DNA of 64,000 nucleotides. It comes from Pyrobaculum neutrophilum V24Sta (GTDB taxonomy: Archaea; Thermoproteota; Thermoprotei; Thermoproteales; Thermoproteaceae). The notes beneath the pieces were generated by a model, which did no database searches, was not told where the DNA came from, and was given only the letters and a program-made list of their open reading frames with translations. The stretch covers positions 1,116,001-1,180,000 of the forward strand of contig NC_010525.1 in NCBI RefSeq assembly GCF_000019805.1. The letters are read 5' to 3'. The translations under genes and the position numbers were made by a program. Shown one piece after another: positions 2,889-10,654 of the stretch; within the stretch, counting starts at the first letter, position 1; every line of letters begins with the position of its first letter.

Positions 2889-3592
2889 GGGTGGCGGTTT
2901 TGTACACCGGGGGCAAGGACAGCCACTACTCCATGTTGAAGGCCATGGAGGAGGGCCACCAGGTGGTGTGCCTAGTCACGGCAGCATCCCGTAGGTCAGA
3001 CTCCTACATGTTCCACACCGTGAACATAAGGTGGAGCCTCCTACACGGAGAGGCGATGGGGATCCCCCAATACCTCGTGGAGGTAAGCGGCGAGAAGGAG
3101 CAGGAGGTGGAGGAGCTCTACCAAGCGCTGAGGCCAATAGCGGAGAGACACGGCGTCGAGGGGATAGTCACGGGGGCCGTCGCCTCTAGGTACCAGAAGG
3201 CCCGGGTAGACGCCCTTGCTGAGAGGCTGGGCGTGAAGCACATAGCGCCTCTCTGGGGGCGGGATCAGGCGGAGGTCCTCAGGGAGGAGGCCGCCAGACT
3301 CCGCTTCGTCATCACGGCGGCTATGGCGATGGGGCTTGGGCCGAGGCACCTAGGCCTAACGGTGACCCCCGAGGTGGCCGAGGAGATAATCGCGCTTAGC
3401 GGCAGATACGGCTTTTCCCCCGTGGGCGAGGGGGGAGAGTACGAGACCTACGTCGTCGAAAGCCCACTCTTCTCCATAGAAATACTGGAGGGGGAGCCCC
3501 ACTGGCACCCCGCCGGATGGGGGTACTACCTCATCAAAAACGCCAGGGTCAAAAGATATAAAGAAGAGATCTTGGGGAGACAGCCCCGGTAG
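2885..3592 (+). CDS. dph6: Diphthine--ammonia ligase (Dph6 family)
   Basis: A 235-residue protein of the adenine nucleotide alpha-hydrolase (PP-loop ATPase) fold. The N-terminal YTGGKDSHYSM is the PP-loop (SGGxDS type) that binds ATP, and EGIVTGAVASRYQ with GEGGEYETYV are Dph6/MJ0570-family signatures. The family carries out the last step of diphthamide formation on translation elongation factor 2, the ATP-dependent amidation of diphthine. The length is normal for the single-domain archaeal form. Its TAG stop at 3590-3592 consists of positions 8, 9 and 10 of the downstream tRNA-Cys, so the two genes overlap by 10 nt. Confidence 0.88.
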   Translation: MRVAVLYTGGKDSHYSMLKAMEEGHQVVCLVTAASRRSDSYMFHTVNIRWSLLHGEAMGIPQYLVEVSGEKEQEVEELYQALRPIAERHGVEGIVTGAVASRYQKARVDALAERLGVKHIAPLWGRDQAEVLREEAARLRFVITAAMAMGLGPRHLGLTVTPEVAEEIIALSGRYGFSPVGEGGEYETYVVESPLFSIEILEGEPHWHPAGWGYYLIKNARVKRYKEEILGRQPR

Positions 3593-3690
3593 CTCAGTCC
3601 GGCAGAGCGGCGGTGGACCGCCGGTCCGCCGAAGCTGCAGACCGCGTGGAGACCCGTAGGTCCCGGGTTCAAATCCCGGCCGGGGCTCCA
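3583..3690 (+). tRNA. tRNA-Cys(GCA) with two introns
   Basis: Acceptor GCCCCGG/CCGGGGC with U73 and encoded CCA, D arm GCTC/GAGC, and T arm CCGGG-TTCAAAT-CCCGG. Removing 3614-3633 (20 nt, begins TGG, ends GAA) and 3641-3651 (11 nt) gives a perfect 77-nt cloverleaf with anticodon stem GCGGG/CCCGT and loop CTGCAGA. The first intron would then sit at 30/31 and the second at the canonical 37/38. Anticodon GCA is at 3637-3639, and U73 fits tRNA-Cys. The exon assignment is my own folding, so it depends on the archaeal splicing endonuclease accepting relaxed bulge-helix-bulge motifs. The first ten bases overlap the end of dph6. Confidence 0.85.
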
Positions 3691-3693
3691 CCT

Positions 3694-4032
3694 CTACTTC
3701 TGCTGGTTGAGTAGGTGGTAGAACGCCGGCGTTACGTACCTGAGCTTTGCGACTTGTTGCGCCTTGGGGGGCAACGGTTGGGCTAGGGACTTGATCTTGT
3801 CCGTGGCTACGTATTTCTTGATCCTCTTCCTGAAGTCGAGGGATAGCTCCTCGTACTCCGCCACGTACCCCTCGTCGGCTAGTTGCCTCAGCACCTCCTC
3901 CACCGTCAGCTGCGTTATCTCCATCTTCTCCCTAAGCTCGTCTCTAGCTATCACGGCCAGTGCGTACACCGTGGAGGCGTCGGCTGATGTCACCGACGCT
4001 AAGATCGACGCAACTAGGGTTCTCAAATCCAC
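3694..4032 (-). CDS. Small helical protein at end of the ParA/P-loop operon, unknown
   Basis: A 112-residue protein from a GTG start. It is mostly helical. Residues 35-60 (REKMEITQLTVEEVLRQLADEGYV) read like the recognition part of a winged-helix domain, with a basic stretch after it (FRKRIKKYV). I recognise no named family. It is the last gene of a five-gene minus-strand run (7478 to 3694), 41 nt behind the ParA-like gene, and ends three bases from the 3' end of tRNA-Cys on the other strand. By position it could be the DNA- or partner-binding partner of the ParA ATPase, like the B component of ParAB or SegAB; that is inference only. Confidence 0.7.
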   Translation of the reverse strand: MDLRTLVASILASVTSADASTVYALAVIARDELREKMEITQLTVEEVLRQLADEGYVAEYEELSLDFRKRIKKYVATDKIKSLAQPLPPKAQQVAKLRYVTPAFYHLLNQQK

Positions 4033-4073
4033 GGCTGTAGATCAGCTCCTACATATATGTATTGCGGGGTGTC

Positions 4074-4742
4074 TTACTCGAACCACCGCGACTTACCTAC
4101 CTTCTTAAGATCCTGCATGAGGAGCTCCGCCAGCTTTATCACGGGCTTCGTGTAGAGCTGGCCCCGTCTGTTGTAGTAGTCCAATGTGGCCGAGAAGGGT
4201 ATCTTCAGCGCTGCGCCTTGGTACTCGATCCCCCTCTCGTGTTTGTTCAGCACTATGTAGAGTTTGGCGTCGAAGAACCTCTTTATCAGCGCAAGCGGCT
4301 TTGTGCAGTCTTCGTAGCCCTCCACCACCAGCACTATCACATCTGCTTTATCTAAGCCGAAGACCTCGATGGGGGTTATCCTGGAGAGCTGGTACATGTC
4401 GATAAATACGGCGTCTATGGAGTGTTTCACTACGTTCCGCCTCACGGCCTCCGTCAGGTTTCTAAATATCTCCTCCCAATTCTCTATTCTCCAAACGGAG
4501 GCGGGGTCCACCGCAAGCGGGATCACAAACAAGTTTTTCGTCCTCTCGTCTTTATACGCCTCAACCTCGGGGGTCACCTTCTCGATATCTATCTGCGGCG
4601 CTGGGAAGTACCTCGAGGCGCCGCCGCCTAGGTCGATAAGGAGTACGTTTATGGGAAGAGCCGCGGCTGTGTTTACAGAAAGTGTGGTTTTTCCAGCGCC
4701 TCCTTTACAGCTTGTGAAGGCTACTGTCCCCGCCCTTATCAT
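4074..4742 (-). CDS. ParA/MinD-family ATPase
   Basis: A 222-residue deviant Walker A ATPase: TSCKGGAGKTTLSVN at residues 10-24 contains the KGGxGKT signature with both lysines. The next strand is LLIDLGGGA in place of the usual D-x-D switch, and the Walker B-like strand is AVFIDMYQ. The C-terminal half lacks an obvious MinD amphipathic helix. Such ATPases dimerise on ATP and move chromosomes, plasmids or protein clusters. The gene is 3 nt downstream of the polyproline protein and 41 nt upstream of the small helical protein. A ParA in a chromosomal operon with a big P-loop protein and coiled-coil protein is not an arrangement I know. A positioning role is likely; the cargo is unknown. Confidence 0.85.
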   Translation of the reverse strand: MIRAGTVAFTSCKGGAGKTTLSVNTAAALPINVLLIDLGGGASRYFPAPQIDIEKVTPEVEAYKDERTKNLFVIPLAVDPASVWRIENWEEIFRNLTEAVRRNVVKHSIDAVFIDMYQLSRITPIEVFGLDKADVIVLVVEGYEDCTKPLALIKRFFDAKLYIVLNKHERGIEYQGAALKIPFSATLDYYNRRGQLYTKPVIKLAELLMQDLKKVGKSRWFE

Positions 4743-4745
4743 TTA

Positions 4746-5192
4746 TCACTGCGGCGCCGAGGGGCGGCACTTCTCCGCGAGTATCGAGATAAGCGCGGCG
4801 AGTTTAGAGTTGAACTTCTCAGCCAGCTTCACTAGATCCTCGGGAGATAGGGATTTGCTCAACGCCTCTATATGTGGCTCCTCCAGCAAATCGATGTTTT
4901 TATATATCACGTCTATCATCCTGTCGTTCATCACCAGAGGCGTGGCCTTTGGAGCAATTAGAAACCTCACGAAGGTCCTCTCCTCGGCGGGTAGCTTCGC
5001 AATGGTGGAGGCCACAAACCTCATAAACTGACCCACGTCTGTGGTCGCCTCCTTAGGGGCAGGCGGCGGGGGAGGCGGAGGAGGTGGCGGCGGCGCCGGC
5101 TCCACGGCTTGTCTTACCTCTTGGACAACCTCGGCGAGCTCCCTCTTGGGCTCCTCCTTTTTCTCGCCAACGATGGTCCTGAACTTCTCCAT
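4746..5192 (-). CDS. Protein with polyproline linker, unknown
   Basis: 148 residues in three parts. Residues 1-32 are a charged helix (KFRTIVGEKKEEPKRELAEVVQEVRQAV). Residues 33-46 are an almost uninterrupted run of prolines. Residues 50-148 form a compact helical domain with motifs such as VGQFMRFVASTIAKLPAEERTF. I recognise no family. The rigid polyproline spacer between a short charged tail and a globular domain suggests an adaptor that holds two partners apart, for instance an activator tail for the ParA ATPase encoded directly downstream. N-terminal basic tails do stimulate ParA ATPases in known systems; here this is inference. ATG start; 37 nt after the coiled-coil gene. Confidence 0.75.
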   Translation of the reverse strand: MEKFRTIVGEKKEEPKRELAEVVQEVRQAVEPAPPPPPPPPPPPAPKEATTDVGQFMRFVASTIAKLPAEERTFVRFLIAPKATPLVMNDRMIDVIYKNIDLLEEPHIEALSKSLSPEDLVKLAEKFNSKLAALISILAEKCRPSAPQ

Positions 5193-5229
5193 GGCTTTGG
5201 CATCTCATAGCCTTATAAAAGTTGCTGAG

Positions 5230-5691
5230 CTAAGTTGTGATGAGGAAGAGGGGCGCTAGATCGCTGTATATCTGGCTGTAAAATTGGACGAATCTTCTCG
5301 TAATATCCCAAAGTTCGTCCAGCTCCTTTATTAGGTCGAAGAGCTCGTCGAGTGTTAGGTAGGCCGTCTTCCCGCCTCTTATCTCCTCCAGCCTAGCCCT
5401 CAGCTTCTCAATCACAACCTCGGACTCCCTGCTCAAGGCGGCTAGTCTCTCCTCCACATCGCCGAGCCCCAGCTGCCTAAACTCCGGAACTCTGCCTATC
5501 AGCCTCTCCAGGGTGTGGGAGAGCCTCGCCGACTCCTCCCTTATGTAGCTCTCGGCCATGTCTACAACTCTACTGAGTTGGCCGACTACCTCTTCGTAGA
5601 AGCGGTTGCGGGAGTCTCCGTGGGAGTCCGCAAGCTTCAGAAGATCGCCTATAAGGGCGGCGTCTCCGTATTTACGGAGATATCTCTCCAC
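5230..5691 (-). CDS. Coiled-coil protein, unknown
   Basis: 153 residues, almost entirely helical. Heptad-like spacing of Leu/Ile/Val is clear from about residue 30 to 110 (VVGQLSRVVDMAESYIREESARLSHTLERL, then VEERLAALSRESEVVIEKLRARLEEIRGG), so a long coiled coil or helical bundle is likely. The last 40 residues (LTLDELFDLIKELDELWDITRRFVQFYSQIYSDL) are a second amphipathic block. There is no transmembrane segment and no recognisable domain. It is the second gene of the five-gene operon, 20 nt behind the large P-loop NTPase. A scaffold or polymer-forming role would fit both the structure and the ParA neighbour, but is not shown. Confidence 0.75.
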   Translation of the reverse strand: MERYLRKYGDAALIGDLLKLADSHGDSRNRFYEEVVGQLSRVVDMAESYIREESARLSHTLERLIGRVPEFRQLGLGDVEERLAALSRESEVVIEKLRARLEEIRGGKTAYLTLDELFDLIKELDELWDITRRFVQFYSQIYSDLAPLFLITT

Positions 5692-5711
5692 ACTTTATCG
5701 ATGGATGTTGT

Positions 5712-7478
5712 TTATATAGATTCGGAGCATCTCTCAGACGGCTTATACCTCTTGACCACCTGCCCGTACCCGGCGCTCTCCAGAGCCAGCTCCATCTGCC
5801 TAAGGGCTTGGCACGGCCGCGCCGCGGCGGCCTTTGCAGCCGAGGCCACGGCCACCTCCACCACCACCTCTCTACACTCCACGCCGCATTTCTCGTAGAT
5901 GGGGCCGGCGTCTCCCACGGCCTCCACGTATTTAGCTGCCAGAGTCTCGGTATCCTCGCCGAGCTCCACAGCCGTTTTTAAGGCGAGCGCTATGGCGTCC
6001 CCGGGGGCCACCGCCGCCGACTGGACCAGGGCAAGGGCAAGCCTTTTGGTGATGAGGTTGCCCCGCGTCAGCGCCAGCTCCACATAGTCCCTAAAGGGCC
6101 TTAGATCTACCCGGTGCCTCTCCGCGGCTTCGTACAAGGCGTTTAACACCTCAAGCCACCCCTTCTCCCCCACCTCTTCGGCCCTCTTGCCGGCGTAGTA
6201 CTCAAGCCCGCTTGTTAAAGACGGCGGGGCCTCAGCCGACAGCCTGATTGGGTGTATCAAGGCGTTGATCAGCGCCTCATCCATAGCCCCGCCTCTGCAG
6301 AGCTTCGCCATCTTGCCCACGCATGGGCTTTGGCCCATGGCCAAGGCGACGGTGGCTTTAGCCAAGTCGTTGTAGGCCTCCTCCACTATGACAAACGCCT
6401 TAGCTAAGACGCGTAGGTTCACCTCGCGGCGCACGATGCCGCACTGGCGCCTCACCTCCTCCTCCACCCTCTTCAACACCTCCTCATATATCCCCCCGGA
6501 GGTTGCCTCTATCGACTTAGCCACCCAGCCGGGCCTCATCAAGCGCCTGAGCTCCTCGGCGGACTGGAGAGCCAGTATCTTCACATACTCCCTATGCGGC
6601 CCCGCCAGCTTGTCGGCCAGCGACAGTAACTTCTCCAGCGTCCTTACCCTGGACTCCACCGCCTCGTAGTGGGCGGCTTGCGACGCGATATGCGGAGGCA
6701 GATGCCTATATGCCAAAAGGCTTACGAACCGCCTCGCCTTGGAGCAAGACGGCGCGTAGAGGATTTTGACGTACGCAGCCAGCTTCTCAGCGTAGGCGTC
6801 CCTCGCTCCGTCGGCTACCCTGCGGGGGTCCTCGTCGCAGAACTGAAGAGCCTTAGCCGCATGCAACGCCATGTAGGCAACGCCCTCCCCCCACGTGGAT
6901 ACGCGCTCCACCACGGCGTCTGCGTAATCGGCGCCGCAGTACACATCGCTGTTCTTGGCGAAAATCTCCCGGGCGAGGCCGGCGTCTGGCTCAACGGCCA
7001 GCCGCTCGTACCCAGCCAGCTCCGACCTACACCTCACCGCCAACTCCGTCGGGAGGACCACCACGCTGGGGAACCCCAGCCGTTTAACGTAGTCGGCCCT
7101 CGCCAGTATCCTGCCGCAGCTATCTCTCCAGAGCGCGGCTTGTTCAGACCAAACCTCGGGCTCTGCGTAGAACTGAGGCGGTAGCGCGTCAAAGACCGCG
7201 AAGGCCCAGCCAGCCCTACGGGCCAGCCTTAGATATTCGGCGAAGGTGGAGGTGTCGGAGGCCAGGTCTATGACCACGGCGCCCTCCTCAGCCGCGGCAT
7301 ACGCGACGAGCCCCACCGCAACCGATTTGCCAACCCCGTGCGGACCCACCACCACTAGGGAGGCGCCCTCCCTTAGCCTCTTGGACAGCACGCCGGCTAG
7401 GGGAGGGGGGACCAACTCCACCGCAACCTCCCCAAGCTTGAAATAGGCGAGGCCCCCCCTCCTTGAGAAGAGATACAC
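5712..7478 (-). CDS. Large P-loop NTPase with helical C-terminal region, unknown
   Basis: 588 residues from a GTG start. Walker A VVVGPHGVGKS lies at about residues 42-52, followed by strands VVIDLAS and AFAVFDA, the latter a plausible Walker B. The nucleotide-binding part seems to cover the first 200-250 residues in an AAA/STAND-like order. The rest, to residue 588, is alpha-helical and repeat-like (many A-L-A stretches) and could be a TPR-like superhelix. There are no membrane segments. It leads the five-gene operon: a TATA box (TTTATAAAG, about 7497-7505, minus strand) lies 22-24 nt upstream. I could not place it in a named family. STAND-type proteins sense signals and assemble, so a switch or scaffold role is possible. 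Confidence 0.75.
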   Translation of the reverse strand: MYLFSRRGGLAYFKLGEVAVELVPPPLAGVLSKRLREGASLVVVGPHGVGKSVAVGLVAYAAAEEGAVVIDLASDTSTFAEYLRLARRAGWAFAVFDALPPQFYAEPEVWSEQAALWRDSCGRILARADYVKRLGFPSVVVLPTELAVRCRSELAGYERLAVEPDAGLAREIFAKNSDVYCGADYADAVVERVSTWGEGVAYMALHAAKALQFCDEDPRRVADGARDAYAEKLAAYVKILYAPSCSKARRFVSLLAYRHLPPHIASQAAHYEAVESRVRTLEKLLSLADKLAGPHREYVKILALQSAEELRRLMRPGWVAKSIEATSGGIYEEVLKRVEEEVRRQCGIVRREVNLRVLAKAFVIVEEAYNDLAKATVALAMGQSPCVGKMAKLCRGGAMDEALINALIHPIRLSAEAPPSLTSGLEYYAGKRAEEVGEKGWLEVLNALYEAAERHRVDLRPFRDYVELALTRGNLITKRLALALVQSAAVAPGDAIALALKTAVELGEDTETLAAKYVEAVGDAGPIYEKCGVECREVVVEVAVASAAKAAAARPCQALRQMELALESAGYGQVVKRYKPSERCSESI

Positions 7479-7551
7479 ATGTTGAGAGTGGCGCCTTTAT
7501 AAAACGTTGAGATTCTAAATTGAATATTAAAATCCAAGCTCCAAATGCCAT
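7479..7551. promoter_or_regulatory. Divergent promoter region for P-loop operon and Rossmann-like gene
   Basis: A 73-bp, AT-rich gap between two divergent genes. On the minus strand TTTATAAAG (about 7497-7505) serves the GTG at 7478. On the plus strand ATATTAAAATCC (about 7524-7535) lies 22-23 nt before the GTG at 7552. Both spacings match the leaderless pattern elsewhere in the window. No inverted repeat that would suggest an operator is obvious. Confidence 0.6.
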
Positions 7552-8331
7552 GTGTCTTCTGCGCTTGATTCCGGAATTGCAGGTAGCCGCTACATGCGGA
7601 TCCTGCTTAAGCAGACCGAGGTGAAGGCCGACGACGCCCTGGGCCGGATATACGGCCTACTCGCCGAGCTGGGGTACTTCGCAAAAAGGGGAGACAGGTA
7701 CAAGCGGACGGGCAAGCTCCCGCCTGCGGTGTCAAGCCGCCTACTGGGGGCGGTTTTCGACGACGTAATCATCCCTCACCTCCTCGGCGACCCGGTGAAG
7801 CCGAACTACGAGGCGCTTTTCGCAGCCACCGCCCTCTTCCAAGGCCTAAGGGTTAGAGCCGCCGAGAAGCTCGGCAGAGGCGGGATAGTGTTGGTGGCGG
7901 GGTGGCTTCCCTGCGGCTTCTCAACGGAGGTCGCGGCGGCCACCGGCGCAGACCTCGTGATCCTCGACGAGCACTGGGAGATCCTCGCCCTTGAAGAGGA
8001 GCGGATGTCGCTCCTGCCCCTGGAGCTGGTGAAGGTGGGAACCGAAATGGCTCCGTCCCTCTACGTGGGGTTCGAGGTGGGCAGGCTGGAGGATCTCCCC
8101 CTGGACAAATACGGCAGATTCACCCTCGCGCTGGTTTGCCACAGGGGAGTAGATGTGAGAAAGGCCCGCGAAATCGCCGAGAGGGTTTACAGAGTGACCT
8201 TCTCGGGAGGCCTCGGGATATTTGCAGACCTCATCGCCGAGGCGCTGGGCTTGGGACGTGGCGAGGAGTGCGGACGCGGGGGGAAGACGATATATAAGGA
8301 CCGCGACCTCTGTATAACGGATGTTTCGTAG
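7552..8331 (+). CDS. Winged-helix plus Rossmann (methyltransferase-like) protein, unknown
   Basis: 259 residues. The N-terminal 60 residues (KADDALGRIYGLLAELGYFAKRGDRYKRTG) look like a winged helix, as in the dimerisation domain of many SAM-dependent O-methyltransferases. The middle has a Rossmann-type strand-loop IVLVAGWLPCGFSTEVAAATGADLVILDEHW, which resembles methyltransferase motifs I and II, but the glycine-rich loop is degenerate (AGWLPCG). It may be an inactive or divergent methyltransferase. GTG start 22-23 nt after a TATA box; ATG at 7594 is an alternative. It overlaps the small GTPase gene by 11 nt, so the two are probably made together. Confidence 0.7.
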   Translation: MSSALDSGIAGSRYMRILLKQTEVKADDALGRIYGLLAELGYFAKRGDRYKRTGKLPPAVSSRLLGAVFDDVIIPHLLGDPVKPNYEALFAATALFQGLRVRAAEKLGRGGIVLVAGWLPCGFSTEVAAATGADLVILDEHWEILALEEERMSLLPLELVKVGTEMAPSLYVGFEVGRLEDLPLDKYGRFTLALVCHRGVDVRKAREIAERVYRVTFSGGLGIFADLIAEALGLGRGEECGRGGKTIYKDRDLCITDVS

Positions 8332-8818
8332 GAGGGAGAGCAAGACCGTTGTGTTCATGGGCATCGGCGGCGTGGGCAAAACCACGTATATATACAGGGT
8401 GCTCGGCATAGCCAAGGCCCCGAGGGTAACCAGGAAGCCAGGGGTTTACCAGATAACGGCGGGAGATACGCTGTTGTACCTGGTGGATACGCCCGGCCAG
8501 TACGCCGTCGAGGTAGCCCAGAGATACTACGAGGCGATTAAGACCTTCGGCACGAGGATAGACCTCGTCGTCTACGTCTACAGCGTCGTGGACCCCCCGA
8601 CGCTCCAAGCCCTGTGGGAAATCGAGAACTGGGTATCTAGGTACCCGCCTCACACAAAGGTGCTTCTTGGAAACAAGAGAGATCTCGCCGAGGAGGTGGG
8701 CGTATTTACTGAGGGGGACGACGCCGCTACGGCCTTGGGGTCCGTCCGGCTCTACTACACCTCAGCCCTTAAAGACGAGCCCGAGGAGCTCCTCAGCCAC
8801 CTTGTTGAGAACCTCTAG
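8321..8818 (+). CDS. Small Ras/Arf-like GTPase
   Basis: 165 residues with all G motifs in order: G1 GIGGVGKTTY (about 14-23), G3 VDTPGQY (about 58-64), G4 GNKRD (about 116-120) and G5 TSALK (about 147-151). A threonine in the switch I region cannot be assigned with confidence. There is no membrane anchor or extra domain. It is a Ras-superfamily molecular switch close in size to archaeal Arf/Rab-like proteins, cytoplasmic or peripheral to the membrane. The start overlaps the upstream Rossmann-like gene by 11 nt, so that protein is the best guess for a partner or effector. The 3' end overlaps the convergent thioesterase gene by 26 nt. Confidence 0.85.
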   Translation: MFRRRESKTVVFMGIGGVGKTTYIYRVLGIAKAPRVTRKPGVYQITAGDTLLYLVDTPGQYAVEVAQRYYEAIKTFGTRIDLVVYVYSVVDPPTLQALWEIENWVSRYPPHTKVLLGNKRDLAEEVGVFTEGDDAATALGSVRLYYTSALKDEPEELLSHLVENL

Positions 8819-10036: not shown

Positions 10037-10654
10037 CTATTGGGCGACCGCCTTGGCGAGCTTCGCCTCGTAGTGCTCAACGATCTTCTTCTTAACCTCC
10101 TCGAAGTGCTTAGGCAGATCCTCGGGTTGCACCCCCCGTTGGAGATACCGGGAGAATCTCGCCTTATAGAGCTCTGGGTTCTCCTCCTTGAGCTTCGCCG
10201 CGTACTCCGCCACGTGTTTACCGGAGACCCTGTCGTCCTCCGGGAGCACCTCCTCGCCGTGTGGTATCTCCAGGCCGGCGTCTAGAGCGCCTTTTAAGAC
10301 GGCGAACACCCTAGACCCAGCCACGGGCCTGTGGAGGCCGATGTCGAGGACGGCCTCCCTCACCCCCCTCAGCCTCGCCTTGTACCCCGCCACAAGGCCG
10401 AGCAGGTAGGCCGCCGACGTGTTGTTCTCGTCGCCCCTCCAGCCGAACTTAGCAAGCGCCCTGGTGTCGACGCCCACGATCGTCACATCGCCCTGCGGCT
10501 TCGCCACGACGACCTGGGCGATTATGTGTTTGTTGGTTTTCCTAACCACGAGCCGCGGCTTCCGAGAGAGTATTAGCCTCCTCCTCTTCCTGTAGTTTGT
10601 GAGGCCCTCCCTCCTCCTTCTGAACGGCACCTTGTATCTAGGGCCCCTCGCCAT
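10037..10654 (-). CDS. rpl18: 50S ribosomal protein L18 (uL18)
   Basis: 205 residues, the archaeal-length uL18 that binds 5S rRNA. The N-terminus [27 protein letters not shown] is the conserved archaeal/eukaryotic RNA-binding extension. The middle has [17 protein letters not shown] and [30 protein letters not shown], both typical. It is the last gene of the run S8-L32e-L19e-L18, with 1 nt between L19e and L18, so one mRNA is likely. In most archaea S5, L30 and L15 would follow; here a tRNA gene follows instead. Confidence 0.97.

Follow-up and report, generated by a model that had tools for sequence, protein, structure and literature searches.

Genes and transcription units of the locus

We analysed a gene cluster of Pyrobaculum neutrophilum V24Sta located in a stretch of 64,000 nucleotides (the window; positions 1116001–1180000 of a single-contig genome of 1,769,823 bases). 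Coordinates refer to the window unless an extracted locus (L-number) is named; G000 denotes the window genome and G027–G035 the genomes of relatives. At 3694–7478, a first-pass annotation made from the sequence alone had described five minus-strand open reading frames as one operon around a ParA-like ATPase, and had proposed an unknown segregation, positioning or division system of the Thermoproteales. The five frames, here named A to E, were delimited correctly and are separated by gaps of 20, 37, 3 and 41 nt. Gene A (5712–7478) encodes a 588-aa NTPase, B (5230–5691) a 153-aa helical protein, C (4746–5192) a 148-aa probable ParA partner, D (4074–4742) a 222-aa divergent ParA/MinD ATPase, and E (3694–4032) a 112-aa possible winged-helix protein. 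The locus extends past 3694–7478, and a divergent gene pair on the plus strand had been missed: F (7552–8331), encoding a 259-aa protein, and G (8321–8818), encoding a Ras-like small GTPase of 165 aa, overlap by 11 nt and both diverge from A.

Six other Pyrobaculum genomes (G032, G029, G031, G027, G035, and G034) carry homologues of A to E in unchanged order, and the neighbourhood is thus conserved beyond this species, a check that the first-pass annotation had asked for. D is frameshifted in G035, and A is cut by a contig end in G034. Ratios of nonsynonymous to synonymous substitution rates (dN/dS) were about 0.06–0.27 for A to E wherever dS was unsaturated, values that are approximate because silent sites were saturated in several comparisons. 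A to E are real, conserved genes under purifying selection, and conservation is clearly strongest in C and D: compared pairwise with G032, their dN/dS was 0.06 and 0.07, respectively, versus 0.22 for A and 0.17 for B. Orthologues share 75–85% amino-acid identity with the window protein for D, 48–66% for B, and 58–64% for A in the genomes that carry B-C-D. Apparent frameshifts were also seen in G027 (L047 6610–7032 in C, and 10163–10642 near the 3' end of G), which, like that in D of G035 (L044 7656–8317), represent either a real change or a sequencing error.

The first-pass annotation had placed one TATA box, before the first gene. We observed that a TATA-like box, starting 25–29 nt before the start codon, recurs upstream of A, B, C, and E in nearly all relatives (seven to nine genomes), while none was seen upstream of D in any of these genomes. 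Within the divergent promoter region of A and F (73 nt, 7479–7551), TTTATAAA starts 25 nt before A, and TATA-like sequences are also present upstream of F. The C-D promoter region (5193–5229, minus strand) holds TTTATAAG, starting 27 nt before C; this box matches in 8/8 positions at -27 or -28 in 7/7 genomes, whereas at random positions so complete a match starting between -24 and -29 has a probability of 0.0028. The TATA-like sequence CATATATG in the E promoter region (4033–4073, minus strand) starts 27 nt before E and is kept in most relatives; in G028 it scored low, yet GATAAATA is visible there. The box of B is the least regular. In the window it reads TCTATATA, starts 29 nt before B and overlaps the 3' end of A (A-B junction, 5692–5720, minus strand); six genomes have a 7/8 match by the scorer, and in the seventh a box reading TATTTAAGG can be made out. 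Because of the conserved internal boxes, we rejected the reading of A to E as a single operon. Since D alone of the five genes lacks a TATA-like box, the transcription units are likely to be A, B, C-D, and E, and only C-D, with its gap of 3 nt, looks bicistronic. The spacing of about 26 nt between box and start codon implies leaderless transcripts, which are common in Crenarchaea.

The C-D pair, its putative accessory and its losses

The assignment of D to the ParA/MinD ATPases by its KGGxGKT motif was borne out. D carries KGGAGKT and matches Pfam CbiA (PF01656) above the cut-off (7.6e-7), PF13614 below it (8.7e-5), and a ParA-like family of PHROGs (phrog_164, 9.9e-10). Its closest solved structures in the PDB are MinD (4v03, E = 0.0026), and also FlhG, FleN, and Soj, all with weak E-values. 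The deviant Walker A motif CKGGAGKTT, including the signature lysine, is invariant in 6/6 intact orthologues. By these sequence features D is a divergent ParA/MinD ATPase. A mobile or viral origin was rejected: D had no plasmid relative at E <= 1e-5, neither D nor C matched viral contigs with the patterns tried, and the sole PHROG match is a generic ParA.

The protein encoded directly before D consists of a basic N-terminal peptide, a variable linker, and a C-terminal domain. The N-terminus of C, MEKFRT(I/M)VG(E/T)KKEE, is invariant bar two positions across orthologues, with a net charge of +2 to +3 over 12 residues and of 0 to +2 over 17 residues. The linker comprises 32–37 residues and varies among relatives. 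In the AlphaFold2 model (structures were predicted for A and C), the predicted local distance difference test (pLDDT) is below 50 at residues 8–33, in the N-terminal and linker part; six helices are predicted, with block means of about 72–88 over residues 51–120 and a whole-model mean of 64.5. The run of prolines in the linker, to which the first-pass annotation had drawn attention, is present with 11 residues but is not conserved, the longest run in the linkers of relatives being one proline. We therefore discarded the polyproline as a functional element of C and regard it as specific to this species.

In proteins that partner ParA/MinD ATPases, a charged N-terminal tail serves the ATPase, while the remainder binds the cargo (PMC10241942); in PomX, a tail of this type precedes a region rich in Ala and Pro and a domain that interacts with itself (PMC7993993). 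The layout of C, with its charged peptide, linker and helical domain, fits that of the known ParA-activating partners by analogy, although its peptide carries little net charge. C is also co-encoded with D, as shown by the 3-nt gap, by the lack of a promoter motif of D's own, and by their matching phyletic pattern.

B has no family match and was found only alongside C and D. Its description as a coiled-coil protein holds at best locally: the mean 3.5-residue hydrophobic periodicity was equalled by 165/500 shuffled sequences, but residues 33–75 and 113–147 show a stronger signal. The matches of E to helix-turn-helix families were weak and all below threshold (best GntR, 0.0037). In profile searches A, B, C, and E had no match above curated cut-offs, in agreement with the earlier failure to place any of these four in a family.

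Among 398 genomes of the phylum, C was found in 7 of the 11 Pyrobaculum genomes and was absent from the 387 others. B occurs in the same seven genomes, and D follows the same pattern with an additional remnant in G030. Seven genomes thus contain B, C, and D jointly, one of them with a frameshifted D; three lack all of them, and the remaining one holds the D remnant only. In G028, which has intact A, E, F, and G, B-C-D is cleanly absent; as A and E are only 27 nt apart there, B-C-D was lost as a block. In G030, A and G are disrupted, neither B nor C is left, and D survives as a remnant, with F and E still intact. G031 has lost G, and A to F remain. B-C-D behaves as one module, of which E and F-G are independent, and the module is dispensable, since it is cleanly absent from G028 and decaying in G030.

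A conserved neighbourhood of Ras-like GTPases

B-C-D represents a known kind of module, a ParA with a partner, in unusual surroundings. What surprises more is that the gene neighbourhood of crenarchaeal Ras-like GTPases is conserved. G consists of a single G domain with the motifs GIGGVGKTT, DTPGQ, and NKRD, and matches Pfam MMR_HSR1 (5e-8) and Ras (1.3e-7), both above the cut-offs. The G3 motif D56-x-P58-G59-Q60 is invariant, with both Asp and Gln kept. A class-level search with a G-family profile (E <= 1e-8) retrieved five genes in G000, G being one of these, six match places in G027 (5–6 in others), and one in Thermoproteus. Among the GTPase paralogues of G000, the one that diverges most overlaps a dual-specificity-phosphatase-like gene with an HCVGGMGRT motif (L138 8254–8760 and 7754–8386).

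A survey of prokaryotic small GTPases described crenarchaeal Group 2 Rup proteins with up to six copies and no conserved neighbours, no Rup member being characterised at that time, and proposed them as kin of the ancestor of eukaryotic Arf/Sar/SRbeta (PMC4316618). In the features tested, G resembles this group: it is a crenarchaeal protein of 165 aa, within the 150–240 aa expected of the group, with the G3 Asp and Gln, has five copies in the genome, and has no roadblock gene at its sites. The likeness is one of features and not of tree placement, our GTPase tree being built from G-family members only. G differs from MglA in the G3 Asp, which is absent in MglA. The sole roadblock/MglB match in G000 (94166–94396) lies far from every GTPase, and none was found in G027–G030, G032, G035, and the Thermoproteus genomes; without any adjacency, a roadblock/MglB protein was rejected as the partner of G.

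In contrast to the neighbourless genes of the survey, G has F and A as conserved neighbours. F carries PCGFS and CHR motifs and has no Pfam match. Its profile retrieved 21 near-full-length genes in Pyrobaculum and Thermoproteus. Of these, 19 are in genomes where GTPases were also mapped, and F directly adjoins a GTPase or a GTPase remnant in 18 of the 19, the exception being G031, where the locus lost G. The linkage covers two paralogous pairs in Pyrobaculum plus a third, convergent arrangement in Thermoproteus. Gene A has a full-length paralogue within the genus, A' (about 27% identity), which is convergent to another GTPase gene, G', in every examined genome with both, except G031. A and A' each stand beside a GTPase, and the A-G association therefore exists at two loci with different arrangements. 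Near the A'-G' locus, more canonical ParA proteins of about 270–280 aa (SASGGVGKTT) are encoded at L059 731–1543 in G029 and at L056 936–1745 in G027, with similar ones in G032, G033, and G035. G000 has no match of this SASGGVGKTT type, and PF13614 retrieves from it, at E <= 1e-6, a single frame of 343 aa at 407178.

The structural model of A (mean pLDDT 89.5) agrees with its earlier description as a P-loop NTPase with a helical C-terminal region: an N-terminal AAA+/STAND-like P-loop domain (GPHGVGKS) is followed by an all-helical superhelix. The best Foldseek matches, Orc1/Cdc6 (2qby, E = 7.2e-4) and the STAND protein Avs5 (E = 1.3e-3), share this order of a P-loop domain fold and a helical array, but TM-scores are low (0.24–0.26 over the query), and the Pfam match to AAA_16 (6.8e-5) is below the cut-off. 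A further difference from these proteins concerns the Walker B position: D97, which closes the third core strand, does not vary in the A/A' family, and the next residue is A or P instead of an acidic one. Hydrolysis by A may for this reason be weak. A reading as a defence system was set aside, as PADLOC gave only a sub-threshold match, to the P-loop of A (mad8, 0.0088). The P-loop region of A is also shared by large proteins (open frames of 868–1482 aa) of Pyrobaculum and of further members of its class (G032:C1:906914–907693, G018, G029, G033, G068, and G069).

Outside this locus, the GTPases closest to the window G (54–57% identity) share one unresolved group of our tree with it. They lie inside an archaeal bundling pilus locus in G028 (L149 4786–10827) and divergent from loci for this type of pilin or a relative of it in G031 (L141) and G027 (L151). 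The G028 pilin matches in 204/204 residues the pilin of PDB entry 7ueg, which we take to be AbpA of P. calidifontis. No pilus genes were found beside the window G. Relatives of AbpA are present in 11/11 Pyrobaculum genomes, with or without B-C-D, so that a correlation of B-C-D with bundling pili has no discriminating power and was dropped. The link to pili is a lead for function and not evidence on the window locus.

With F and the paralogous AAA+/STAND-like proteins A and A', first candidates emerge for regulators or effectors of the crenarchaeal Group 2 Rup-like GTPases.

A candidate positioning module and its alternatives

B-C-D is a dispensable, genus-specific module that probably positions something inside the cell. 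The proposal of a positioning toolkit of ParA, partner and helical accessory thus remains the best reading of these genes, but not in its extension to division or segregation throughout the Thermoproteales. More specifically, we tentatively favour, at somewhat short of an even chance, a ParA/MinD-type module with D as ATPase, C as its activating partner, and B as an accessory of the pair, next to A and F-G as candidates for cargo or switch. D would cycle between an ATP-bound state associated with a matrix, either nucleoid or membrane, and a free state. The short basic N-terminal peptide of C would bind to D dimers in their ATP-bound form and set off hydrolysis, the flexible linker would serve as a tether, and the helical domain would bind cargo, with C either carrying the cargo or being carried by it. 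Repeated binding and release of D from the matrix could then shift the cargo bound to C or keep it spaced. The module would have been inserted beside an older Thermoproteaceae pair, G-F, and next to A. B, A, and the F-G pair are cargo candidates, and A, F, and G may be the best ones for a cargo complex or its switch.

Several observations weigh against this proposal. The peptide of C has little basic character, with no net charge over 17 residues in one species. The fold of C had no match in the PDB (best E = 0.89), and the cargo can therefore not be read from its structure. Moreover, G028 retains A, E, F, and G but no B-C-D, and G031 retains A to F but not G; B-C-D on one side and A, F, and G on the other are thus separable halves.

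The best precedents are McdAB, PomXZ, and PpfA-TlpT, in which a ParA-type ATPase is likewise co-encoded with a small partner composed of a charged N-terminal peptide, a flexible linker and a separate domain (PMC10241942, PMC7993993). However, we found no similarity of C to a known partner, either in sequence or in fold, and the locus described here is archaeal, restricted to a genus, and accompanied by a Ras-like GTPase and an AAA+/STAND-like NTPase. The C-D pair would be a compact archaeal ParA-partner candidate from a hyperthermophile and convenient for structural work. SegAB also combines an archaeal ParA-type ATPase with a partner; C differs in that it has a charged tail and a helical domain and matches no Pfam family. 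No SegB relative was seen, C and E having no family match above the cut-off in searches that did not use SegB itself as a query.

Other explanations assign different tasks to the same genes. D might act as a regulatory ATPase like FlhG/FleN that, instead of positioning a cargo, uses a transcription factor (perhaps E) to control how many copies of a surface structure are made or how strongly it is expressed. MinD, FlhG, and FleN among the structural matches of D would agree with this, as would the pilus loci at the GTPases nearest to G in three genomes; however, the window G is not beside pilus genes, AbpA relatives show no simple correlation with B-C-D, and E survives without D. We consider such a regulator unlikely, though worth keeping in mind. 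If E or C instead bound a centromere, D would be a segregation ATPase and the locus a DNA partition cassette, either a relic of an integrated element or an aid to chromosome segregation. A ParA-like protein next to a putative DNA-binding protein is the classical layout, and E does have its weak helix-turn-helix matches. Yet E is preceded by a promoter motif of its own and persists where D has disappeared, no relatives turned up for D in plasmids at E <= 1e-5 or for D or C in viral contigs with the patterns tried, and the locus is chromosomal with neighbours much alike across the genus, which makes a partition cassette quite improbable. The order held in seven genomes despite near-saturated silent sites, and the joint decay of A, G, C-D, and B in G030 with F and E intact, speak against the view that C-D (with or without B) and A, F, and G are unrelated neighbours that only share an address within one genus. 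Separate promoter motifs, the loss of B-C-D but not of A, E, F, and G in G028, and the loss of G alone in G031 favour that view; on balance it seems rather unlikely to us.

ParA/MinD proteins can place division sites, and a division system of the Thermoproteales had been suggested on the premise that the order lacks FtsZ and Cdv. C is confined to 7/11 Pyrobaculum genomes instead of occurring across Thermoproteales without FtsZ/Cdv, and B-C-D is lost or decaying in the other Pyrobaculum genomes; this phyletic pattern contradicts a general division system of the order, and any division role of this kind is very improbable. The premise on Cdv is also dated, as CdvA orthologues and related families have now been reported in Thermoproteales as candidate division components (PMC10936438). 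B-C-D is thus not the missing division machinery, and one candidate can be struck from that search.

An extension of the positioning reading would join both halves of the locus into an archaeal polarity or positioning circuit, in which the ParA-partner pair places a complex under the control of a Group 2 Rup-like GTPase, with F as a regulator resembling a GTPase-activating protein or a guanine nucleotide exchange factor, perhaps in the service of surface filaments. We regard this circuit as improbable. If true, Archaea would have an equivalent of the Myxococcus switches (ParA-like and MglA) that is based on a GTPase family proposed as kin of Arf/Sar.

Two RNA genes were observed near the locus. 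Just downstream of E, a tRNA-Cys(GCA) gene (3583–3690, plus strand) contains a 21-nt intron at the non-canonical position 31/32 and was missed by the default ARAGORN scan and at the Rfam gathering threshold. On the far side of the locus, PyrR204, an H/ACA-type small RNA (RF02802; 9953–10009, minus strand), scored above the gathering threshold.

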